Origin: Gammaproteobacteria bacterium
Lineage (GTDB): Bacteria > Pseudomonadota > Gammaproteobacteria > Steroidobacterales > Woeseiaceae
DNA: 64,000 nt
Direction: 5' to 3'
NCBI GenBank assembly: GCA_029884455.1
Contig: JAOUHU010000007.1
Span: forward strand, 1 to 64,000
Positions 1-11,174 of the stretch are shown piece after piece. Position numbers and translations under genes: made by a program. The number at the start of each line of letters is the position of its first letter. The first letter of the stretch is position 1. Under the pieces are notes generated by a model, which was not told the origin of the DNA, made no database searches, and worked only from the letters and a program-made list of their open reading frames with translations.

Positions 1-892
1 TACCGGCAATGTTGTTGATGCTGGAAAAAGCCGGCGCCGCAGCGGGTGAGCTCTGCAGGTCACTGTTGCGGCCATCCGCAAAGCGCAACAGGCGACCGTC
101 GACAGCGATGCGATCAGCGCGCCGATCCGCGGGTGCGGCGAAACCAAAGCTGGCAGCAATAGCGATCAGTTCGTCATCGTCGCTATCGGTATCGGCAATA
201 TCGGCATCAAACGAATAGCCAGCATCGCTGATAACGCCGACACCACCCACCGGTGTGCCGGCCTTGTACAAGGGAATGCCGCCGGGATCCGCGGCGAGGC
301 CAAGCGGCGAACGATGCGGCCCGATATCCGCAGTACCCCCCGAGTAGCGCGTCAGCAGGTCAGAGCAGGGCAGCTGGCTGAACTGCACACCGAATAAGGG
401 ACCGGCCGGCTGCTGATGGTCACGCGGATTAAAGTGCTCCTGCACAATCTGGCTGGCGGTTCGGGTAGTAAATGCGTTGCCCTCGGTGGAGAGGTAGGCA
501 GCGGTAATTGCTTTCGCAATTGCGGCGAGGCTGTCTGGCACGATGTTGACGCCTTCGAGACCACCATCGACAGTCGCTCCCGGAGAACGAATCGTGATTG
601 CTGTTGCAGCGCCGTTCATGCGAAAAACGGCGAGCACGTTGCCGACCCTGTCAACTACCGCGATCGTGGCATTGACGCCTCGCGCCTGCGCCTCGGCAAC
701 CGCCTGCGCGATGACAAACTCGATGTCTGCTACCGAGAGGCTGGTTGCCGTATTCGCGCATTGGCCCGTACAACCGGCATCCGGTGTTGCCGGATCGACG
801 CCGGCGACTTTGGATTGCGAACCGCCGCCGCAGGCGATCAGCGTGGCGAGCGCCAGACAGCCGGTGGCCAACGGCCGCACCAGGCTGATCAT
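1..892 (-). CDS. HbpS/GlcG-family heme-binding-like lipoprotein, 3' end off window
   Basis: This reading frame runs off the left edge, so about 297 residues are visible. The ATG at 892 overlaps the stop of the upstream decaheme cytochrome gene as ATGA, which fixes the start and suggests coupled translation. The protein opens with a lipoprotein signal ending L-I-A-C (Cys21) followed by a glycine/serine stretch. It then resembles the HbpS/GlcG family: an early helix (roughly 50-70), then a strand with the characteristic V-D-R-V-G-N-V-L-A-V-F pattern, and a later glycine-rich G-G-V-G-V-I segment. Family members are small alpha/beta proteins, some of which bind heme or sense redox stress. A haem- or redox-linked role fits the cytochromes upstream, but no ligand is demonstrable. 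It is the last visible gene of the redox operon. Confidence 0.75.
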   Translation of the reverse strand, partial: MISLVRPLATGCLALATLIACGGGSQSKVAGVDPATPDAGCTGQCANTATSLSVADIEFVIAQAVAEAQARGVNATIAVVDRVGNVLAVFRMNGAATAITIRSPGATVDGGLEGVNIVPDSLAAIAKAITAAYLSTEGNAFTTRTASQIVQEHFNPRDHQQPAGPLFGVQFSQLPCSDLLTRYSGGTADIGPHRSPLGLAADPGGIPLYKAGTPVGGVGVISDAGYSFDADIADTDSDDDELIAIAASFGFAAPADRRADRIAVDGRLLRFADGRNSDLQSSPAAAPAFSSINNIAG

Positions 893-2451
893 GGATACAG
901 GCCCAGCGCGTCGAAATGAAAGCCGTGACACATGACGCAGGTGCTCGGTATTTGCGCGGCATTATTACGGCTGGCGTTGCCACTGCCATGGCAAGAGCGG
1001 CAGGTTTCGATGCCAGGTATCAGCGCATCGGAAGCAGCCGTTGATGTACTCGCCTCGTGGCAAACGTCGCAACGGGTTACTTCGGTCTGGTGCGCCGCGT
1101 GTGAAAAACTGGCGTGCGGCAGGAACTCACTGGTCAAAGTTGTCGGCGCGACATCCCAGGGCATTGCCGCATTGCTGTCAGTAGTGTTGACAACGTGGCA
1201 ATTCACACAGGCGCGACGCAGGAACAGGTCCTCGGCGACGGCGAGTGCCTGCACGCGCGCTTCGGCGGCAGCCCTATCGCGATCGGCACGCGTCAGAGAT
1301 TGCCCCGGGCGCCGCACGCGTTGCTCCACGGCATCCGGGTCGGCGCCCAGCAGTCTCGCGCTGTAATACTCGATCAGTGTCTGCAGCACGTCGGCCGGAT
1401 CGCCGTGCGGTACGGTGCGTGCAGGCTCGTCAGGATCGAAGGCCAGCGTGTGACAGCCGCTGCAGTGGTCGACCATGGAAATCGGCAACATGCCCCTGCC
1501 GCCGGTTTCCGCAACATGGCACTCGTCACACTCGACCACGCGTCGTCCATCCGGAGTCACGATGCCTTCCGGGTCAAGGTGCTTTGCGTGGTTAAACAGC
1601 AGATTCGAATCTGCCGGCGTCTGCAACAGGCTGATGCTGAACTCAGGATGCTGGTCAAGGAAATCAGCTGCAGCTTCGAGCTCGCTGCCGGCAGCCGGAC
1701 TGGCGTGACAATCGGCGCAAAGTGCCTGGTGCTGGTTCACCAGTTGCGGCGGTTCATTGTGTTCGAGGTGGCAGCTCGCGCAGCGCATGTCACCGAGCAC
1801 GCCAGCTGTCGTATTGCTGCTGTCCGCCGCTACATGTCGCGCGACATTATGGCAGGCGACACACGCGCCATCCGGAACGCGCTCGAATGCCGTGATATGA
1901 CACGCGCTGCAGTCTTCGCTGAGAGCCGAATGTGCTGCATGTATCGGGCCGGCCTGGAGCACGGTCTTGCTGAGCACGTTAAATGCCGGTAGCGCAACAG
2001 CGAGGACCAGCACGATACCGGCAACTGCCCAGGACAAGCGTCGTTTGCTCCAGCCCGCGATGCCGGTGGTGTCGGAGCTCCAGTCGGCGACAAAATGCTC
2101 GGCGCTGGCGTCGCTGCGTAACTCGAAGCTGAGCGCGAAATCGGCACCGCGCTCAGCGGCAATAACCGTGAGAATGTTCGAGCCGATTTCCACGACATCA
2201 CCAACGGCGAGGCGCGTATCGCTTTGCGACCGGCCATTGACGGTTACGCCTGAGAGCGTGCCCGTCGTGAGGCGCGCACCACCGGCGTCCGCTGCAATTT
2301 TCGCGTGCTGCAGGCGAACCCGTTTATCGCGCAGATGCAGGGTCTGATCCGTTGCGCGGCCAATCGTAATTTCGTTTGCGGCGACGATCTTGTCGTTGTA
2401 TTCGATGCCGCCAGCGGCACTGCGTGTGATGAATCGGATCAGGAACTTCAC
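889..2451 (-). CDS. FHA-domain transmembrane decaheme c-type cytochrome
   Basis: A 520-residue protein starting at GTG. Residues about 5-100 look like a forkhead-associated domain (I-G-R at 30-32, His49, N-G at 72-73), but the Ser normally in the V-S-R-x-H motif is not there, so phosphothreonine binding is uncertain. One membrane segment lies at about 139-160. Ten CxxCH haem-attachment motifs follow at 181, 197, 224, 245, 308, 330, 415, 461, 484 and 505. The topology implied is cytoplasmic FHA, one helix, periplasmic multihaem domain. The gene follows a membrane b-type cytochrome gene (4 bases between) and overlaps the HbpS-like gene. The likely role is receiving electrons from the b-type cytochrome and passing them on in the periplasm. 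Acceptor unknown. Confidence 0.88.
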   Translation of the reverse strand: MKFLIRFITRSAAGGIEYNDKIVAANEITIGRATDQTLHLRDKRVRLQHAKIAADAGGARLTTGTLSGVTVNGRSQSDTRLAVGDVVEIGSNILTVIAAERGADFALSFELRSDASAEHFVADWSSDTTGIAGWSKRRLSWAVAGIVLVLAVALPAFNVLSKTVLQAGPIHAAHSALSEDCSACHITAFERVPDGACVACHNVARHVAADSSNTTAGVLGDMRCASCHLEHNEPPQLVNQHQALCADCHASPAAGSELEAAADFLDQHPEFSISLLQTPADSNLLFNHAKHLDPEGIVTPDGRRVVECDECHVAETGGRGMLPISMVDHCSGCHTLAFDPDEPARTVPHGDPADVLQTLIEYYSARLLGADPDAVEQRVRRPGQSLTRADRDRAAAEARVQALAVAEDLFLRRACVNCHVVNTTDSNAAMPWDVAPTTLTSEFLPHASFSHAAHQTEVTRCDVCHEASTSTAASDALIPGIETCRSCHGSGNASRNNAAQIPSTCVMCHGFHFDALGLYP

Positions 2452-2455
2452 GTGG

Positions 2456-3334
2456 TCACCAGTACACGAACACAGTCACTATGTGCGCGACCAGGGCCAC
2501 CAGCAGACCGGTCGTTAATGGCACGTGCAGATACAACCACAACTCCATTGTCGCCTGCAGTTGCAGGTCTTCGCGAATCTGGCGCAACAGCTTGCGCTTG
2601 TTGCGCAGTAGCGCGGACAATTCGCCGATCTTTGCCGCCGACTCGGCATCGCTGGCACGCGATTGTTGTTCCGCCAGCCAGTCGAGCGCCGCCTCCTGGC
2701 CGGCATTCGCCACTGCGCCGGATTGGCCCTGGCCGGGCAGCACGATGGTCGAGCCGTCGGCACCGCGAAATCGTGTCCACAGCGAGCCGCCCAGTTGTGT
2801 GCGACTGGCGCCGCTTTGTACCAGCGCGGCAAATGCCTCCGGCAACGCCGCTGCGATGCGGCTGCTGCGTGCATCGAGGTCTTCGAGCTGCAGAAACAGC
2901 TCCGGGCGGCTTGCGCCACCGCGATTGTTGCTGACGCGCCCTGGATATTTCAGGTAGACGAATACGCCGTACAGGCCAGTCACGATCACCAGCAACAACA
3001 AAACGAACGCCAGCGTGTGAATGTTGCTGCCGAGCTGAAAACCGGCATGCAGCAATACCAGCACCGGCAGCGCGATACCGAGATAGACGTGTGCTGACAG
3101 CCAGCCCTGAACTGTGCCTGCTGTCGAGGCGTAGCGGCGTTTGCGAATACCGAACCAGGCCAGCCAAACGACCAGCAAGGCTGCCACCGTGCCAAGCACG
3201 TAGCCAAGCAGCGTGCCGCCATTGGCCGGTTCCTGCGGGTCCTGCAGCAGGTAGGCCGCGACCGATGCGGCCAGCATAAAGACGGCGAGCCAAAGGTAGC
3301 GCCGGCCGCGATAAGCGAGGATAGACTGGTGCAC
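2456..3334 (-). CDS. Membrane cytochrome b-like protein with two pairs of axial-ligand-type histidines
   Basis: A 292-residue protein starting at GTG, one base after the stop of the upstream flavo/iron-sulfur gene. Predicted membrane segments are at about 14-30, 42-61, 80-97, 107-128 and 268-290, with a soluble stretch at roughly 130-265. Two helices each carry two histidines exactly 14 residues apart: His82/His96 and His270/His284. This spacing within two helices is the classical arrangement for two stacked b hemes. I cannot assign it to a named family with certainty; b561-like and ferric-reductase-like proteins are the nearest impressions. Its place between a cytoplasmic-type FAD/Fe-S protein and a periplasmic decaheme cytochrome makes it the likely transmembrane electron carrier. 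Confidence 0.75.
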   Translation of the reverse strand: MHQSILAYRGRRYLWLAVFMLAASVAAYLLQDPQEPANGGTLLGYVLGTVAALLVVWLAWFGIRKRRYASTAGTVQGWLSAHVYLGIALPVLVLLHAGFQLGSNIHTLAFVLLLLVIVTGLYGVFVYLKYPGRVSNNRGGASRPELFLQLEDLDARSSRIAAALPEAFAALVQSGASRTQLGGSLWTRFRGADGSTIVLPGQGQSGAVANAGQEAALDWLAEQQSRASDAESAAKIGELSALLRNKRKLLRQIREDLQLQATMELWLYLHVPLTTGLLVALVAHIVTVFVYW

Positions 3335-3335
3335 C

Positions 3336-5705
3336 TCAGCCTGCCCGCTTGCTCAGGTGTACGAACTCGGCCGGGCTCATACGCAAGGCCGCCCCGGTGG
3401 GACAGGCACGTACGCAGGCGGGACCACCCCTCAGGTCCTTGCACATATCGCATTTAACCGCTTTCTTCATGCCGCCATCCGCAGCCAGCGGCCGCCGTTC
3501 GCCCGGCCCGGGGCCTGTGCCAGCCAGCAGCCAGCTCAGCAGGCCGGGTGCCGGCTCCTTCTCGCCAGCCATCTGAATGACTCCGTACGGGCAGTTACGC
3601 TCGCAGTTGCCGCATCCAATGCAACTGTCCTGAATGTATACCTCACCGTTAGGTGCGCGCCGGATCGCATCCGGCGGACAATCCTTCATGCAATGCGGAT
3701 CTTCGCAGTGGCGACACGAGGTTGGTACATGCACCTGTGCGTAGGACGGGCCGGCCGACCGATCCAGGCGCGAAGTGCCACCGTGGGTCTCAGCACAGGC
3801 CTTTTCGCAATTGTCGCAGCCGATGCACAGCGACTCGTCGATCAACAGCACGTCGGTCGCCTCGCCGAGTCCCTGCTGCATCAGGAACGAGATCAGGTCG
3901 CCGGCTTCCGGCGCGGCTTCCATGCGCGCGTTTTCGCTCAGCCTGTCTCTGACCGTGTTCTGAATGCGTTCCCGCAAACCGGTCTGCGACAGCATCATTT
4001 TCTGAAACGCATCCGCGCTCAGGAATACGGACTCGGTCGCAACGGTGGCGCGAACTGTCGCCGAGCGTTTCGCCTGGCCCAGCAATCCCATCTCGCCAAC
4101 GTAGTTCCCTGCCGCGACATAGGTCGTGACGACCTCGCGGCCACCGATATTGCGCGACACCGACACCGAGCCGCTGCGGATCAGGTGCAGGCCATCAGCT
4201 GTGTCGCCCTCGCTGAACAATTTGTCACCAGCGCTGAATTTCCTGAGTTCGGCCGTCGCCGCGACCGCGGCCACGTCTTCGAGCGGCGCGTCGGGAGCAA
4301 GGTTGGCGCGCAGCGTACGAATGATGAAGTACTGGTCGATAACGCGGCGCACCTGTTCATAAGTATTCATCAGCCGGATGACGTCGCGGCGCGGCGATTC
4401 CAGCAGCACACAATCAGAAGACGCACGTACCGTTGCTGACCGACGCCTGCCCGACAACAGGCTCATCTCGCCAAAAAATTGCCCTTCTTGCAGGCGGATC
4501 GACCGGCCGTCATCGGTTTCGACTCTGACCTCGCCCTGCACGATCGAGATAAACGAATTCGTATAGTCGTTCTTCTGAAAAATGACGTCGCCGTTCCGCG
4601 GTGTCAGCAGGTTGCTGGCGAGCACCAGCTCGCGCAACACCAGGCCATTGATGTCGGCGAACAAAGGTATACGCTGACGAATAAGTGCGAGGGTATCATC
4701 GACGCTGGCAGCGAACGGCAGGCCCTGAAACTTCTGTTCGAGGATGCCGTGATCAGCCGGCTGGATATCGTTGCCGAGAATAAACTCGACGACTTCGTAG
4801 CCCTGGTTCATGGCCTGCTTGATCAACGGGTAACCGCCCAGCGCACCAATCACGTACAGGCCGGGCACATTGGATTCGTAGCGGCTGCTGAGTTCCGGCA
4901 GCGTGGTCGGGTCACTGCCCGGGAAAACGATGCCACAGGACTCAACGAAAGCGCGCGGCGGGATTGCGCCAAGACGAGCGATAATTCGATTGCAGGGCAC
5001 ACGTGTCTGGCCGGTCTCGGTGCTGAGTATGGCAGCCTCGCCGACTTCCAAAGCGCTGATTCCGGAATTGTAGTAGCAGGCGATGGCACCATCGGCGATC
5101 GCGCGCGTAATCAGGGCGAGGTTGCCTTCTTTCGCGCGCGCAAACTCGTCGCGACGGTTGACGATGATGACCGAATTGTTGCGTGCCAGCGCAATTGCGT
5201 TCTCTATCGCGGCGTCACCCGCACCAACAATCATGATTGTTTCGCCGTTGAACGCGTCCGGATCGTCGAGCGTGTACTGCACGAATGATGCATCTTCGCC
5301 TGGCACGCCCAGCTTGCGCGGGTTGCCCTGCATGCCAATTGCGAGCACAACGGATTTGGCGGAAATGGTCTCACCGTTGGCAAGTAAAACGCTGAACTGC
5401 GGATGGCTGCCGGTAATGGCGGTGACTTCGGCCGCGTAACGCAGCTTGATAGCGAGCTTGTCGAGACCCTGGCGCCACGCGCCGAGTACGGCTTCGCGTG
5501 TACCAGCGGTAAATGGCAGGTCACTGCGCAATGGCACGACGGCGGGTTCCGCCATCACGTGTTTGCCTTTCTGGTAGCGCTGAATGGTGTTCGCGTGTTC
5601 CGCTGTGCCCTCAAGCAGCAGGTAGGACATGCCCCTGGTCGCAGCATGCGCCGCCGCACTGAGCCCGGCGGGCCCGCTGCCAACGATGACCAGGTCGAAA
5701 CTCAC
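3336..5705 (-). CDS. FAD/NAD(P) oxidoreductase fused to two cNMP-binding domains and a four-cluster ferredoxin domain
   Basis: A 789-residue fusion starting at GTG, overlapping the FecR stop as GTGA. Residues 1-315 are a thioredoxin-reductase-like flavoprotein fold with G-S-G-P-A-G at 9-14 and G-A-G-D-A-A at 161-166. The CxxC redox pair of true thioredoxin reductases is absent. Two CRP-like cyclic nucleotide domains follow, with phosphate-binding cassettes at 411-425 and 536-550; both keep the G-E and the R-S-A elements needed for cAMP or cGMP. Residues 621-770 hold four Cys quartets (627/630/633/637, 664/667/672/676, 695/698/701/705, 752/755/764/768), as in NrfC/DmsB-type electron-transfer subunits. 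The probable job is to take electrons from NAD(P)H to the membrane cytochrome under cyclic nucleotide control. The adenylate cyclase in the same operon is the obvious source of ligand. Confidence 0.88.
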   Translation of the reverse strand: MSFDLVIVGSGPAGLSAAAHAATRGMSYLLLEGTAEHANTIQRYQKGKHVMAEPAVVPLRSDLPFTAGTREAVLGAWRQGLDKLAIKLRYAAEVTAITGSHPQFSVLLANGETISAKSVVLAIGMQGNPRKLGVPGEDASFVQYTLDDPDAFNGETIMIVGAGDAAIENAIALARNNSVIIVNRRDEFARAKEGNLALITRAIADGAIACYYNSGISALEVGEAAILSTETGQTRVPCNRIIARLGAIPPRAFVESCGIVFPGSDPTTLPELSSRYESNVPGLYVIGALGGYPLIKQAMNQGYEVVEFILGNDIQPADHGILEQKFQGLPFAASVDDTLALIRQRIPLFADINGLVLRELVLASNLLTPRNGDVIFQKNDYTNSFISIVQGEVRVETDDGRSIRLQEGQFFGEMSLLSGRRRSATVRASSDCVLLESPRRDVIRLMNTYEQVRRVIDQYFIIRTLRANLAPDAPLEDVAAVAATAELRKFSAGDKLFSEGDTADGLHLIRSGSVSVSRNIGGREVVTTYVAAGNYVGEMGLLGQAKRSATVRATVATESVFLSADAFQKMMLSQTGLRERIQNTVRDRLSENARMEAAPEAGDLISFLMQQGLGEATDVLLIDESLCIGCDNCEKACAETHGGTSRLDRSAGPSYAQVHVPTSCRHCEDPHCMKDCPPDAIRRAPNGEVYIQDSCIGCGNCERNCPYGVIQMAGEKEPAPGLLSWLLAGTGPGPGERRPLAADGGMKKAVKCDMCKDLRGGPACVRACPTGAALRMSPAEFVHLSKRAG

Positions 5706-7339
5706 GGATTGCCAAATACGGCTGCGCCCGATACCGAAGTGGAGCCTGCCATGTCCTGCAGGCTATAGGTCAAACCGGCGCCACCCGGAAACGCAGGGTC
5801 TGAACTCGGGCCAGGTTCGGCAAAAAATCCCGAAAACACGCCATTGCCGCCCGTGACTCCATCGATTGCGACATTGCCGTAAATGCCCTGAAAAAGGTGC
5901 GCCGGCAGTTGCGCAGCGGCACCAATATTGCCGTTACCGCTTGCGCTCCAGCTCGCGCCATTGATGTCGATCAGCAGCGTGCTGTCAACGCGCATATTGG
6001 TGAAGTCGGCGCGAAATGTCGCATTGCCCAGCGCGCCGACGTTGCCGAGGTTGTCGGTCGGTGAGGTGGAGCCGACCAGGGAATAATTCGCAACGCCGGA
6101 AATTGGCATCGCGGTTGAGGTGGACCAGGCCGGGCCCGCGATCCAATGCACACTCTGGCCACGCAGATCCTGGTTGGCGGCCGAGCCATCGCTCAAGCTG
6201 ATGCTGGCTGTGCCACCCGCCCAGCGGCCCCAGCGCATCACGGTCATGCTGTCGGCGCCGCTTTCGGCGAGTGTCGCACTGCCGATCGCAAAACTTGCGG
6301 TATCCAGGCCCGTTGGAGCGGGGTAGAGATTGGCGAATTGCACCAGGTTACCGTCGCTGTCGAGCTGATACTGGCCCGGGTCATTATCGAGCATGCCGCT
6401 GAAGATCGCATTCGGGCCACCAAGCGGCCCGGTCGAGAAGGTAACCGATCGATTGGACGGATCCGGCGCCGCTCCCGGCGTCAGGTCGACCGGGTTACCC
6501 GCAGCATCGGTGCCGCGGATCGACTGTGCCGGCACAGCGATGTTGCTGCCATCGTCCTGGGTACTTGATGCTGGCGCCGTTGATATCGGCGGCGGCGCAC
6601 TCGCACCGGCCTCGCGTCGCGGCCCGAGCTTCGAGTCGAAGCCGCTTAGCGACTCGAGGTCCGGCTCAAAGCGAAAATCGCTATCGTCAATAAATACCGG
6701 TGGTACCACCTCGAGCCGCGTGGGTTGCCTGCTGTCAAACGGAATGAACACGAATTCGCCGGCCCCGACCTCAATCTCGCCGACCTCATTGCGAAATACG
6801 ATACGTCCTTCATCCACCATGATGTACAGGCCTTGTGGCACGACCGTGCCTGGCGGTACACCCGGCGCTGTGTTGCAGTTGCCGCATAGCAGCACGGCGA
6901 AGTTGGTACCGCGGATACCGAGCACGCCGACCGCGGTGCGTACCTCGTAATTTTGCGGGTTGTCCTTGCCAATCGCACCGGTGATGGAGCGGAAACCGCC
7001 CTTGACCAGGCTGATAACACTGCTGTCGTCGCTCGAGGATACGGCAGCTGCACCCGAAGTCGCGGCGGCATACACATATTCATCAATCACGATGCGGCTG
7101 TCGGGGCGAATTGCAATACGCGCTCCATCGCTCATCAGCAACTGCGCGCGGGATGCGGGTCCCGTGATGACAGCATCGCTACTACGCACAGCATCGCCTT
7201 TCGCGAGCGCCACCGCTGGTTCTCGTTCTGCGCTGACATCGCCGCTCGCAAAGCTGACCATGCCGGCGTCCTGGGCATAGACCGGGCCCGTGACTACCAG
7301 CACCAAAATCAACCACAGTTGCAATTTGCGCTTATTCAT
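5702..7339 (-). CDS. FecR-domain protein with TbpB-like beta-rich C-terminus
   Basis: A 545-residue secreted protein. The ATG at 7339 overlaps the upstream stop as ATGA and gives a clean signal peptide ending V-Y-A-Q; an ATG 12 bases earlier is less likely. Residues about 45-150 form a FecR domain (repeated G-D-A-V, then S-R-A-Q-L-L-M-S-D-G and V-L-G-I-R-G-T-N). A proline/serine/alanine-rich linker follows. The last 200 residues are glycine- and serine-rich beta strands with G-V-F-S-G-F-F-A-E-P and V-S-G-A-A-V-F-G, resembling the handle/barrel domains of TbpB-like surface proteins. Slam proteins export TbpB-like cargo, and a Slam-like gene lies directly upstream, so this is a plausible substrate. 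There is no lipobox cysteine, so it would be a soluble rather than lipidated cargo. Confidence 0.78.
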   Translation of the reverse strand: MNKRKLQLWLILVLVVTGPVYAQDAGMVSFASGDVSAEREPAVALAKGDAVRSSDAVITGPASRAQLLMSDGARIAIRPDSRIVIDEYVYAAATSGAAAVSSSDDSSVISLVKGGFRSITGAIGKDNPQNYEVRTAVGVLGIRGTNFAVLLCGNCNTAPGVPPGTVVPQGLYIMVDEGRIVFRNEVGEIEVGAGEFVFIPFDSRQPTRLEVVPPVFIDDSDFRFEPDLESLSGFDSKLGPRREAGASAPPPISTAPASSTQDDGSNIAVPAQSIRGTDAAGNPVDLTPGAAPDPSNRSVTFSTGPLGGPNAIFSGMLDNDPGQYQLDSDGNLVQFANLYPAPTGLDTASFAIGSATLAESGADSMTVMRWGRWAGGTASISLSDGSAANQDLRGQSVHWIAGPAWSTSTAMPISGVANYSLVGSTSPTDNLGNVGALGNATFRADFTNMRVDSTLLIDINGASWSASGNGNIGAAAQLPAHLFQGIYGNVAIDGVTGGNGVFSGFFAEPGPSSDPAFPGGAGLTYSLQDMAGSTSVSGAAVFGNP

Positions 7340-8679
7340 TTCGGTGCCCATCGAATCATCAAGCCGACTTCGGTTCGGTTGTACGTGTAAAGGTCAACAT
7401 CGGAGTTATTGTCGATATACCGCAATCGCGGCGCGAGCGTCAGGCCGTCGGTAAATACGTTGCGAAACTCGAACTGCAACAGCGACGATGTCTGCCGGTC
7501 TTCGCGAGCGCTGCCGAAAAACAGTCCATCGTAATCGCTGCTCAGGCTGCCCAGTGATGCGATCAGGAATGCAGATTCGCCCAATGGTGCCGTCAGGCCG
7601 ACGCGTGCGCCTTCCTTCGAATTGCCGTAGGGCGAGCCACTTTGTTGCTCGTTGTCATTGCCGCCGATCGCCTCGAAACTGAGCCGGCCAAGCGAGGCGA
7701 ACCGATATGAAGCGGCGACCGTGTACAGCGTGCGGTTGACGTCCAGCACTTCGATCGACTCGTCGTAATGCAAAGCGCCGCTGCGCACCGCGAGACTGAT
7801 ATCCCAGTTGCTGTTCAGGCTGCGACCCAGCATCAGGTCAAGTCCGCCATAGGATTCGTTGGACTCGCCGTCGCGCGTGGCGCCGTAACCGTTCAAACCG
7901 GCACGGCCAAACACTGCGCCGCGGCGCCAGTTCATGCTGACCAGCCCACTGAGAACGGCCGCATCGACGAACTCGGCGTCCGGGTTATTGCGGACGCTGG
8001 CCCGGGCACCGAGAAACCAGCCGAACTGCGTGCTGCGCGGCAGGTTCCAGTCGAAGCCGGCAGCGGCCTCAGCGAAAACCGAATCAGTTTTCTGGTTCTC
8101 CGGGCTTAGCGTAAAGCCGAGAAACTGTTCATTCTCAGTGGCGCCATTGGCATTACTGTCATGTCCCGACAGTAACTCGGCGTATGGGGCGAACCGGCTC
8201 GGTGGCATCGACGGCCGAGCGTCGATGGCCTGGATGTAACTGTCGATAACGGCGAGTACTTCGGCCGGTGGGTTTTCGCCCAGCAGGTTTACAAACAGCG
8301 AGCGTGCCTGGTCGTATTCGCCGGCGTCGTACAGGGCACGCGCGAGTTCCATGCGCGCACCTGCAAAAAGTGGCGCCTCGGCTACCGCACGCCGCAGTCG
8401 CAGTATTGCTTCGTCGCCGCGTCCGTAATCCAGAGCGGCCACACCCAACAGGTAATTGAAGTATGCATTCGCTGCGAATTCCGATTCGTAGGCGTGCAGC
8501 AGCTCATAGGCATTGGCGATTTTGCCGCTGGCCAGCAAAGACTCTGCCTGCAGGTACAGGTCACGCGCATCGCCGCTGTCAGCCAGCTGCATGGTCTGTT
8601 GCGCGTGCAGCGCGGTGAACGGCGCGATCAGCAGTGCAAGCGTCAGGACGATGTGTCTTCGGAGTGTTGCTGCGGCCAT
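7336..8679 (-). CDS. Slam-like outer-membrane protein (TPR domain plus beta barrel)
   Basis: A 447-residue protein with signal peptide (residues 1-26, ending A-L-H-A). Residues about 38-165 are tetratricopeptide helices (A-Y-E-L-L-H-A-Y, A-R-M-E-L-A-R-A-L-Y-D-A-G-E-Y). From about 175 the sequence alternates as amphipathic strands to the C-terminus (E-V-G-L-M-I-R-W-A-P-K), consistent with a beta barrel. Size and order, periplasmic TPRs then barrel, match the surface lipoprotein assembly modulator (Slam, DUF560) family, which moves TbpB-like proteins across the outer membrane. The gene downstream, overlapping by four bases, encodes a FecR protein with a TbpB-like tail. The Slam assignment comes from architecture and not from a diagnostic motif. 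A generic TPR-barrel protein is the alternative. Confidence 0.65.
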   Translation of the reverse strand: MAAATLRRHIVLTLALLIAPFTALHAQQTMQLADSGDARDLYLQAESLLASGKIANAYELLHAYESEFAANAYFNYLLGVAALDYGRGDEAILRLRRAVAEAPLFAGARMELARALYDAGEYDQARSLFVNLLGENPPAEVLAVIDSYIQAIDARPSMPPSRFAPYAELLSGHDSNANGATENEQFLGFTLSPENQKTDSVFAEAAAGFDWNLPRSTQFGWFLGARASVRNNPDAEFVDAAVLSGLVSMNWRRGAVFGRAGLNGYGATRDGESNESYGGLDLMLGRSLNSNWDISLAVRSGALHYDESIEVLDVNRTLYTVAASYRFASLGRLSFEAIGGNDNEQQSGSPYGNSKEGARVGLTAPLGESAFLIASLGSLSSDYDGLFFGSAREDRQTSSLLQFEFRNVFTDGLTLAPRLRYIDNNSDVDLYTYNRTEVGLMIRWAPK

Positions 8680-8697
8680 CGTTATTGTCGTCCTTGG

Positions 8698-10947
8698 TTA
8701 CTTGTTCAGCTGCGCGAATACGCCGTCCCAGCCCGCCGGCGGTGGACTCTGTCTAAAATTGCCAATGCGATCGAGGTACACATTATATAGGAGCTCATCC
8801 GAGTGTTGCCGCAAAGTCGTCAAAGCCGTCTCGGCGTCGTCCCAGAGGCGGCTGCGGTACGCCGCAAGCGCCGCCGCATAAGTGGCGAGTCGTTGTTGCT
8901 GCCCGGCTGACAATTCTGCCAATAGTCCGATCGGTTCGTATATGGCGACTGGCTCCGATTTACCTTTGACCCGCACCAGGTCAAGTTCGCGAAATGCGAA
9001 TTCAGGTACCTGGTTGGCGGTTACGTCATTGACGATGATGTCAACGCCATACTGTTTCGTCAGCCCCTCCAGCCGCGAGCCCAGGTTAACTGTATCGCCC
9101 ATCACGGTATAGGCGATGCGAAACTCGGAACCCATGTTGCCAACGTTCATCGGGCCGCTCGCAATACCGACGCCAACACGGATCTTCGGCCAGCCCCTGG
9201 CAGCAAATGGCTGGTCGAGTTCATGCACGACGCGCAGCATGTCGAATGCCGCCAGCAAAGCGTGCCGCGCGTGCTGCGGGTCGGTGAGCGGCGCTCCCCA
9301 GAAGGCCATTACAGCATCGCCCATGTATTTGTCGATGGTACCGCGGTATTTCTGGATGACGCCCGTGAACGGTGTCAGGAATTCGTTCATCATGCGCGTC
9401 AGCTCGGTCGCATCGAGACCTTCTGAAATGGTCGTGAAACTGCGAACGTCGGAGAACAAAACCGACATCTCGCGATTCTCTCCCTCAAGTGAGATCTGTG
9501 CACCGCTGGCATCAATTTCCTCGACCAGTGCCGGTGGAATGTACTGGCCGAATATTTGCGACAGGTGACGTTTGTTGCGCTGCTCGACGAAAAAGCCGTA
9601 AGTAATCTGCAACATCGATGCAATCAGGATAAAGCTCAGCAAAGAGGCAATTGGCACGACCAGGCCGAGCGCGCTCCACATCCAGAGGTTGCTGGCCATC
9701 GCCGCAGCCAACAGCAGGAATACCAACGCCAGTGCCGCGAACGGCGCCAGTCTCGGCAACAACAAGGCAGTCAGCAATGCGATCAGCAACAGCAGGGAGA
9801 ACTCAAGGCCGTCGGACCAGGCGGGCTGTTGGCGAATCGCGCCGTCCAGCAGGCCGGCGATCAGGTTGGCATGAGCCTCGACGCCGATATAGCGTTGTCC
9901 GACCGGGGTCGAGCGCAGATCGAGCAGGCCGGCCGCGCTCGCGCCAAGCAGTGCTATCCGGCCCCGCAAGACATCCGCGGCTGCGGCACCGCTGAGTACA
10001 TCCTTGGCTGATATGTACGGGAAACTTTCCTGCGGGCCACGAAAGGGAATGAACACGGCGACCTGTTCATTCACCGGTATACGCCGTTCGCCGATCGTCA
10101 GGGCCTCGAGTTCAACGCCGCTCATGCGCCCATCCTTGGTGGCGGCAAACGCGAGGCCAATATCCGGCATGTCCAGTGCCACCCGGGCAACGGCCAGCGC
10201 GAGCGAGGGGTACAGGTCACCCTGGAAGCGTTGCAGTAGCGGCGCGCGCCTGAACACGCCGTCGGCGTCGATAACAGGCGCGTCGAAAAAGCCACCGCCG
10301 ACCGCATTCTGTTGCAGCGCGGGCAGGTTGCCCGAGAAACCGCTGGCCGTTATGAAGGGTACCGACAGGTCGGCTATGGCATCCGCCGTGATAATCGGCG
10401 ACGGCAATGCGCCCGTGGCGACCGGCTCATCCCCTTGCAGTGAGTCTTTGAAAACGAATCCAGTCACCACATCGCGAGCGATGAACGATTCCGCGAAGCG
10501 AAAGTTGCTGTCCAGTGCTTCGCGCTGCCGCGCCAGTTCAGTGGCTATCGCGGGATCTCTGCCAATCTCGCTGGCCGCAAGTGTATCGAGCAATCGCTCG
10601 GCCGAGGTCTCCTCGGCTTCGGCAAACAGGGCATCCAAACCAAGGACCCGAATCTCGTAATCGTCAAACAGTCGATCGACGAGAGCGGCCAGGGTATTTC
10701 TCGGCCATGGCCATTGGCCGAGTTCGGCCTGGCTCGCCTCGTCGATATCGATAATGACAATGCGGTCGTCAACGGTGCCCGGCATGGTCAGCCGGATGCG
10801 TACGTCGTACAGATAGTTTTCAATGCGCTCAATTATTTCCAGGCGCGGCGATCCGGCGATGTGCAGCGTAAACAGCAACAGCAGCAGACCACTGATCAAG
10901 GACCGGATCAGGAGCCGAACTGCGCGCTTTTTTGCTGCCGACGACAT
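8698..10947 (-). CDS. CHASE2-domain adenylate cyclase
   Basis: A 749-residue membrane protein. An N-terminal helix precedes a CHASE2 extracytoplasmic sensor (about 35-370, with D-D-R-I-V-I-I-D-I-D-E near 62 and the typical W-P-W-P-R). Three further membrane helices lie at about 375-455, and a class III cyclase domain at about 492-674. The cyclase keeps both metal-binding aspartates (L-F-S-D-V-R-S-F and M-G-D-A-V-M-A-F-W-G), a D-K-Y-M substrate segment and G-D-T-V-N, whose Asp favours ATP over GTP. An ATG at 10947 is used; an in-frame GTG lies at 10962. It is the first gene of the operon, and two cyclic-nucleotide domains are encoded three genes downstream. CHASE2 ligands are generally unknown. 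Confidence 0.9.
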   Translation of the reverse strand: MSSAAKKRAVRLLIRSLISGLLLLLFTLHIAGSPRLEIIERIENYLYDVRIRLTMPGTVDDRIVIIDIDEASQAELGQWPWPRNTLAALVDRLFDDYEIRVLGLDALFAEAEETSAERLLDTLAASEIGRDPAIATELARQREALDSNFRFAESFIARDVVTGFVFKDSLQGDEPVATGALPSPIITADAIADLSVPFITASGFSGNLPALQQNAVGGGFFDAPVIDADGVFRRAPLLQRFQGDLYPSLALAVARVALDMPDIGLAFAATKDGRMSGVELEALTIGERRIPVNEQVAVFIPFRGPQESFPYISAKDVLSGAAAADVLRGRIALLGASAAGLLDLRSTPVGQRYIGVEAHANLIAGLLDGAIRQQPAWSDGLEFSLLLLIALLTALLLPRLAPFAALALVFLLLAAAMASNLWMWSALGLVVPIASLLSFILIASMLQITYGFFVEQRNKRHLSQIFGQYIPPALVEEIDASGAQISLEGENREMSVLFSDVRSFTTISEGLDATELTRMMNEFLTPFTGVIQKYRGTIDKYMGDAVMAFWGAPLTDPQHARHALLAAFDMLRVVHELDQPFAARGWPKIRVGVGIASGPMNVGNMGSEFRIAYTVMGDTVNLGSRLEGLTKQYGVDIIVNDVTANQVPEFAFRELDLVRVKGKSEPVAIYEPIGLLAELSAGQQQRLATYAAALAAYRSRLWDDAETALTTLRQHSDELLYNVYLDRIGNFRQSPPPAGWDGVFAQLNK

Positions 10948-11174
10948 CGCGACAATGTACACGAAAATCTCGTTAAATCAACCGCTTACGAGAATGGTGC
11001 CAGGTGCCCAAACCAATTGCTGAGTTCGCGCATCTTATAAACGCGGTAACTAATAACTAATTGATCGCAAGGCTTGCCGAACCAACGTCGCGAACTGCAT
11101 CTAAGAGAATGTCGTGGCGTGGCGGTTTCGCCCTGTCGGCGGAATGCCAGAGCAACGAAGGCTGTAGTTCGTCC

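Follow-up and report, generated by a model that had tools for sequence, protein, structure and literature searches.

A conserved flavoprotein and multihaem cytochrome gene set with an attached cyclase trio in Woeseiaceae: a candidate cAMP-responsive electron-export module

Genes at the locus

The stretch of 64,000 nucleotides analysed here (the window), from a gammaproteobacterium of the Woeseiaceae (assembly GCA_029884455.1, contig JAOUHU010000007.1), carries seven genes on its minus strand between positions 1 and 10962, read from high to low coordinates. They run from a CHASE2 cyclase through a tetratricopeptide repeat (TPR)-barrel protein, a FecR protein, a flavoprotein, a b-type membrane protein and a decaheme cytochrome with a forkhead-associated (FHA) domain to an HbpS lipoprotein. 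This cluster is the front half of a longer gene set found in many bacteria, and the full set looks built for carrying electrons from the cell interior outward. We give roughly even odds (about 0.5) to the reading that it forms a module for electron export across the membrane, driven by NAD(P)H and responsive to cyclic AMP (cAMP), which in the window is accompanied by a cyclase. The features are as follows, with cNMP standing for cyclic nucleotide monophosphate and FAD for flavin adenine dinucleotide.

8698..10947, minus strand: CHASE2-sensor class III adenylate cyclase (PF05226, 187 bits; PF00211, 71.7 bits; nearest solved relative CyaB 3r5g)
7336..8679, minus strand: TPR and predicted outer-membrane barrel protein (TPR_19, 42 bits; SlipAM, 22.4 bits, cut-off 22.0)
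5702..7339 (alternative start 7351), minus strand: exported FecR-domain protein (PF04773, 41 bits, cut-off 24) with an N-terminal hydrophobic segment
3336..5705, minus strand: putative electron-input protein of 789 amino acids (aa), comprising an FAD/NAD(P)H part (TrxR/YpdA-type), two cNMP domains and 4x[4Fe-4S]
4359..4595, minus strand: cNMP-binding domain A of the flavoprotein (PF00027, 72.6 bits), FGEMSLLSGRRRSATV
3990..4244, minus strand: cNMP-binding domain B of the flavoprotein (PF00027, 76.8 bits), VGEMGLLGQAKRSATV
2456..3334, minus strand: b-type inner-membrane protein with two WX3HX13H motifs and [S/T]GXXG (motif alignment)
889..2451, minus strand: FHA domain, single transmembrane segment and decaheme c-type cytochrome, 520 aa (PF00498, 34.9 bits, cut-off 20.7; cytochrome c3/c7 families)
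2..892 (alternative start 931), minus strand: HbpS-like lipoprotein, 5' part only (PF03928, 36.5 bits; lipobox-like TLIAC)

The original prediction had named these seven co-oriented genes in this order, and all of them were present. Direct reading of the six junctions also matched its counts, with a gap of 18 bases between cyclase and barrel, an overlap of 4 between barrel and FecR (16 if FecR starts at 7351 rather than 7339), an overlap of 4 between FecR and flavoprotein, a gap of 1 between flavoprotein and b-type gene, a gap of 4 between the latter and the decaheme, and an overlap of 4 between decaheme and HbpS if HbpS starts at 892. However, the proposed seven-gene operon turned out to be an artefact of the contig end. 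The contig (G000:C123) starts at window base 1 and cuts the HbpS gene, the cluster does not stop there, and the seven genes as a complete unit are thereby ruled out.

In relatives, HbpS has its full length (~675 aa, within a range of about 660–710 aa; three HbpS stretches in the one relative scanned) and is followed by an outer-membrane barrel, a decaheme of ~1,235 aa containing LVIVD repeats, and a c554-type cytochrome with four haems. The window's own genome has the c554-type gene and part of the LVIVD decaheme on another contig, and its barrel would fall in the assembly gap (between C123 and C117). The barrel of a relative (L046) matched no NCBIfam family at E 0.1; modelling gave the downstream barrel a fold like that of transport channels such as AlgE and the OprD family. 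Ten CXXCH motifs were counted in 14 of 15 large decahemes and eight in the remaining one, and the three cytochromes of the set in relatives have 10, 10 and 4 haem motifs (+1 CX4CH). Just after the c554-type gene of one locus (L073:11000-11160), a near-palindromic repeat with ~40 bases per arm was seen by eye, which may be an operon end or a repeat element.

The flavoprotein matches Pyr_redox, cNMP_binding (twice) and 4Fe-4S families over the Pfam cut-offs, and its PF13247 match (37.7 bits, cut-off 26.2) forms part of a larger fusion. For comparison, the flavoproteins of the best 80 of at least 531 confirmed contig stretches were taken together with the window protein, giving 81 sequences of which the others are 54–90% identical to that of the window. 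The 16 Fe-S cluster Cys are invariant in all 81. Both cNMP pockets likewise keep Gly-Glu...Arg in 81/81, which we take to be the phosphate-binding cassette of the CRP/PKA-type cNMP motif, and the claim of two intact cNMP domains was thus borne out; the solved structures that match these domains are cAMP/cGMP kinases and CAP. Since the pocket residues are kept throughout, the sensing of cyclic nucleotides seems to belong to the core, with the cyclase as a lineage add-on. The window protein has no CXXC before residue 330, and as CXXC is presumably the redox motif of the TrxR-type flavin region, a role as disulfide reductase (TrxR/YpdA) is disfavoured.

No Pfam family matched the b-type gene over its cut-off. 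The two WX3HX13H motifs and [S/T]GXXG were present in 43 of 43 aligned membrane proteins (drawn from the 71 loci with the gene, plus the window), the window protein having TG in the third motif. Described earlier as a four-His b-type cytochrome, the protein does hold four His in these two motifs, which are likely haem ligands and would probably make it a diheme protein, but the invariant His number five (82, 96, 106, 270 and 284 in a 14-row alignment).

The next protein had been described as a decaheme cytochrome with a periplasmic domain. It does have ten CXXCH and a membrane anchor and is encoded beside the b-type protein, but its N-terminal FHA domain had been overlooked. Because a single hydrophobic segment, at 142–160, lies between them, the FHA domain is probably cytoplasmic and the ten haems on the same chain are probably periplasmic. 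Among 59 aligned FHA-decahemes, 58 have ten CXXCH and one has seven, and the Cys and His of all ten haem sites are conserved in 58–59. None of the 59 has a Ser three residues before the conserved His of the FHA domain (SxxH, which we assume to be the phosphothreonine-binding motif), and a canonical phosphothreonine-binding FHA is therefore disfavoured. The PF03928 match and the lipobox agree with the predicted HbpS-like lipoprotein, although the window copy is only a contig-cut 5' part.

The cyclase is 754 aa long from a GTG at 10962 or 749 aa from the ATG at 10947. Its CHASE2 and Guanylate_cyc domains exceed the Pfam cut-offs, and in an alignment with CyaB 3r5g the metal Asp pair and the adenine-type Lys/Thr, whose functional meaning we presume, stand at the same positions of the catalytic domain, in keeping with a class III domain nearest to CyaB among solved structures and with the predicted CHASE2 adenylate cyclase. 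The FecR domain is also over its cut-off, in line with the claimed FecR protein, while the description of the barrel as Slam-like hangs on a SlipAM score with a minimal margin. The own genome has two cyclases detected by PF00211, the family searched, one of them in the window.

A conserved core and an attached trio

The gene set is composed of two units, a conserved core of six genes (flavoprotein, b-type protein, FHA-decaheme, HbpS, barrel and large decaheme) and a trio of cyclase, TPR-barrel and FecR genes. Counting the own genome, the flavoprotein was found in 24 of 197 relatives at E 1e-60, while at E 1e-150 samples of 369 genomes from the class and 398 from the phylum gave 16 and 15 genomes with it, respectively. 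The b-cytochrome and decaheme genes follow it in 23/23 of the relatives' loci that contain the flavoprotein end.

The 80 wider loci come partly from the same genomes as the relatives. Their core-bearing records are titled Alpha-, Beta- and Gammaproteobacteria and include Dokdonella, Solimonas, Alcanivorax and Tahibacter, several titles being metagenome-assembled genome labels that are possibly wrong. By tblastn with bit thresholds, the flavoprotein was detected in 80, the decaheme in 74, the b-cytochrome in 71, HbpS in 66, the barrel in 63 and the large decaheme in 57, compared with 11 for the c554-type gene (4 more on the other strand) and 9 each for cyclase, TPR-barrel and FecR. Leaving out seven rearranged loci, 52 had the 9.9 kb or more of downstream DNA needed for a test, and 49 of these, more than chance would give, have all six core genes in order. 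The other three (L144, L150, L153) have the flavoprotein, b-cytochrome and decaheme, while HbpS, barrel and large decaheme were not detected there. In the rearranged loci (L134, L135, L140, L145, L147, L148, L152) the flavoprotein comes last, behind the large decaheme and the c554-type gene. These seven are among the nine loci without b-cytochrome, the others being L093, with 194 bases after the match, and L083, which has no core gene in the 2.1 kb after the flavoprotein and, by eye, an unrelated restriction-helicase-like frame there.

Some neighbours deserve mention in their own right. The core of Sphingobium herbicidovorans (L185) is borne on plasmid pMSHV, typed conjugative by PLSDB, with flavoprotein, b-cytochrome-sized and c3-type cytochrome genes facing HbpS-like, hypothetical and multihaem genes as two opposed sets. 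A glutamate dehydrogenase-like gene, Pfam-checked for L125 only, stands beside the flavoprotein in 6 of the 80 wider loci (L125, L131, L097, L099, L102, where it is partial, and L117, on the opposite strand), and another lies near the flavoprotein in L036, L055 and L056, that of L036 between FecR and flavoprotein; this neighbour hints at, and fits, a pyridine-nucleotide link. Some 3.7 kb upstream of the flavoprotein of L054 (5169-6272), a single frame joins an aquaporin-like channel (by eye) to a cNMP-like C-terminal stretch (47 bits).

The trio is distributed differently. A colinear cyclase lies upstream in only 8 of the 49 loci of the wider set that offer 6.5 kb or more of upstream DNA, and the cyclase, barrel and FecR genes do not belong to the widely conserved machine. 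Among 23 flavoprotein-bearing relatives (own genome left out), the trio is linked to the core in 21. It lies upstream in 18, whereas in G121, G155 and G134, the last with 4.2 kb separating cyclase from barrel, it is found downstream, on the same strand. A contig end cuts the cyclase in three of the upstream trios (G030, G048, G075), and in G089 the contig terminates inside the flavoprotein gene. In G093 and G172 the trio is neither upstream nor downstream of the flavoprotein.

A tree of 41 cyclases separates 16 unlinked paralogues (40–50% identity) by one branch with support 94/86, not starred, next to which L176 forms a long row. The neighbourhoods of these 16, 5.8–18 kb and some of them contig-cut, contain none of the trio or core genes, seven of them having only weak flavoprotein-domain matches of 37–52 bits. 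On the other side are 17 upstream-linked cyclases, three downstream-linked ones forming a starred group, three with trio genes only and two without core seen. The last two, G158 (a 3.2-kb contig) and G112, have no flavoprotein match at E 1e-60, and in G112 neither barrel nor FecR was found in the 1.9 kb after the cyclase. Directly upstream of the G112 cyclase, a short cNMP-like match of 44 bits was noticed (L164:4128-4454).

Other family cyclases without a flavoprotein match lie on contigs cut inside or just after FecR (G058, G084, G085) or are themselves cut at a contig edge (G083). G078 shows decay on one contig, with cyclase and barrel kept and FecR matched only over residues 24-311, G051 retains fragments, and G102 gives a weak cyclase match of 35% identity. 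The claimed linkage of cyclase and conduit is thus upheld by two gene arrangements and by the separate branching of unlinked paralogues, and the trio is best understood as an addition, at the level of lineages, to a core that is older.

Electron path, gating and alternatives

The anatomy of the proteins points to a path from NAD(P)H through FAD, Fe-S clusters and b haems to c haems. NAD(P)H would reduce the FAD of the TrxR/YpdA-type domain, from which electrons would move through the four [4Fe-4S] clusters of the same polypeptide and two b haems of the membrane protein to the ten periplasmic c haems of the FHA-anchored decaheme. The large LVIVD decaheme and the tetraheme of c554 type would receive them next. 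An outward direction is proposed because the input is low-potential. Together with barrel and HbpS, the outer cytochromes may work at the outer membrane or through it, serving as an extracellular outlet or else as a periplasmic or surface reductase whose substrate uses the barrel.

Since the two cNMP domains are placed between the flavin and Fe-S parts, they suggest a gate, probably switching electron transfer when cAMP binds, and gating of the conduit by cAMP is plausible. The source of cAMP in Woeseiaceae and related bacteria would be the CHASE2 cyclase, acting together with the barrel and FecR proteins of the trio upon an envelope signal. The complete scheme, in which cAMP on the two inserted domains allosterically opens or closes the path from NAD(P)H to the multihaem proteins and is made, in Woeseiaceae, by the co-operonic cyclase in response to an envelope cue, is put forward tentatively, as a proposal clearly short of even odds.

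The modelled AlgE/OprD-type fold of the barrel fits a substrate channel no less than an electron conduit. It is in line with an unlikely but not negligible alternative, in which a small substrate such as an oxyanion is reduced in the periplasm, the barrel serving as its channel and the LVIVD decaheme as its reductase. The best NCBIfam match of the large decaheme (that of L043) is ExtM of the selenite/tellurite cluster (NF040943), yet 60.6 bits against a cut-off of 800 denies it membership, and HbpS looks like a lipoprotein for which a surface position is possible.

The role assigned to cAMP has its own competitor, to which we give about one chance in four: the trio might be an independent envelope sensor merely co-transcribed with the conduit, its cAMP acting on CRP-type regulators, while the flavoprotein cNMP domains are structural or read cell-wide cAMP. 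The trio is lineage-restricted, most loci seen have the core without an adjacent cyclase, and PF00027 stretches occur in four other open frames of the own genome, including a 217-aa frame of CRP size. However, the linked cyclases sit at either end of the core and branch apart from the unlinked ones, whose 16 neighbourhoods are without this barrel, this FecR or the core, and the pocket residues are invariant in the 81 flavoproteins.

Inward flow, with the outer cytochromes drawing electrons from a donor outside the cell (Fe(II), Mn(II) or organics) and the membrane protein feeding quinone or, via the membrane potential, NAD(P)+, is improbable, as a flavoprotein of NAD(P)H type that carries four [4Fe-4S] clusters is a strange end point for electrons from a high-potential donor and the Dokdonella, Solimonas, Alcanivorax and Tahibacter hosts are presumably heterotrophs. 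In its favour, a Gallionellaceae pangenome lists, under 'Other' in its Table 1, a 'Forkhead-associated protein' with ten haems that 27 of the 87 iron oxidisers have (PMC10734462), and the model of He et al. (2017; PMC5566968) has membrane proteins with the same signature taking up electrons and passing them to quinone, whereas for the PCC bearers of PMC13264449, which are mostly heterotrophic, export is suggested there.

If cAMP binding does set electron flux through the export module, a signal would control respiration to outside acceptors in real time, beyond gene expression alone, and such a signal-switched module would span records titled Alpha-, Beta- and Gammaproteobacteria and a conjugative-typed plasmid.

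Comparison with known systems

Conduits of the Mtr/Mto/Pio type consist of an inner-membrane donor, a periplasmic decaheme and an outer-membrane barrel. The present gene set shares this overall plan, but its barrel, as represented by that of the relative L046, is unlike MtrB/PioB by hidden Markov model (HMM), its FHA-decaheme scores 22.5 bits against a cut-off of 192.2 for the MtrA/DmsE-type TIGR03508, and its input is a flavoprotein; the HMM scores rule out an Mtr-type conduit for the window cluster. Elsewhere in the own genome, an MtrA/MtrB pair over curated cut-offs was found (G000:C81:18002-20928; L166, L168), and an 864-aa frame with many weak DmsE-type haem stretches (G000:C32:42545-44533; L167) is possibly another large multihaem cytochrome. 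Known class III cyclases with CHASE2 have the same domain plan as the window cyclase, and differ from it in their neighbours, here barrel and FecR, and in the linkage to a conduit. For the family, mtrCAB is reported in the Woeseiaceae genus UBA1847 (PMC12175321).

The Geobacter ext cluster, extHIJKLMNOPQS, is similar in having a porin-like protein, several multihaem cytochromes and a b-type cytochrome, and is described with a Rieske/cytochrome b input, a rhodanese and a predicted selenoprotein (PMC5877670). The ExtM score given above rules out membership.

Closer likeness was found to PCC3 and PCC4, whose inner-membrane-protein signature is defined by He et al. and read as a diheme cytochrome b (PMC5566968). 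There, PCC4 is described with periplasmic cytochromes of 4, 5 and 10 haems and a porin, without an extracellular cytochrome. The window membrane protein has the two WX3HX13H and the SGXXG-type motif, a PF13247 Fe-S gene lies directly upstream of it (by one base here) as in PCC4 subgroup II, and decaheme and porin are within the cluster. Solimonas terrae (L153:14976-19438) comes nearest, with five- and four-haem cytochromes after the decaheme and a 538-aa exported protein that is barrel-like by eye and has no Pfam match. Measured against the published description of PCC4, the window cluster differs in the fusion of the Fe-S part to FAD and two cNMP domains, in the added FHA domain on the decaheme, HbpS lipoprotein and cyclase trio, and in the ~1,235-aa LVIVD decaheme in place of a five-haem protein. 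PCC3 is described with a periplasmic cytochrome of ~21 haems or more (median 21; 21–27 in Gallionellaceae) versus 10 here.

Ghost-rock group 1 of PMC13264449 (2026) comprises 11 clusters in which a large decaheme lies beside a porin of ~20 strands, and 7 of these also have a gene for a 'ferredoxin-NADP+ reductase' in the vicinity. To judge by description, they are probably the same core, although the section describing the clusters makes no mention of cNMP domains, FHA, HbpS or cyclase, and gives decaheme genes of 4–5 kb against about 3.6–4.0 kb here. The original prediction knew of no named system with this combination; as far as the published descriptions go, PCC3/PCC4 and this group qualify that statement, while it stands for the tie to cNMP domains or a cyclase, for which no publication was found in the open-access literature, a weak evidence of absence. 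The phrase 'cyclic nucleotide' was also not found in the text of the Gallionellaceae paper.

Even without gating, the decaheme/porin/'FNR' group, the ten-haem 'forkhead-associated' protein and the PCC4-type membrane protein, which appear to be listed separately in print, are united here in a single ordered gene set whose entry enzyme is clear and which lends itself to tests in cultured hosts, for instance Dokdonella immobilis, Alcanivorax sp. 1008 or Sphingobium.

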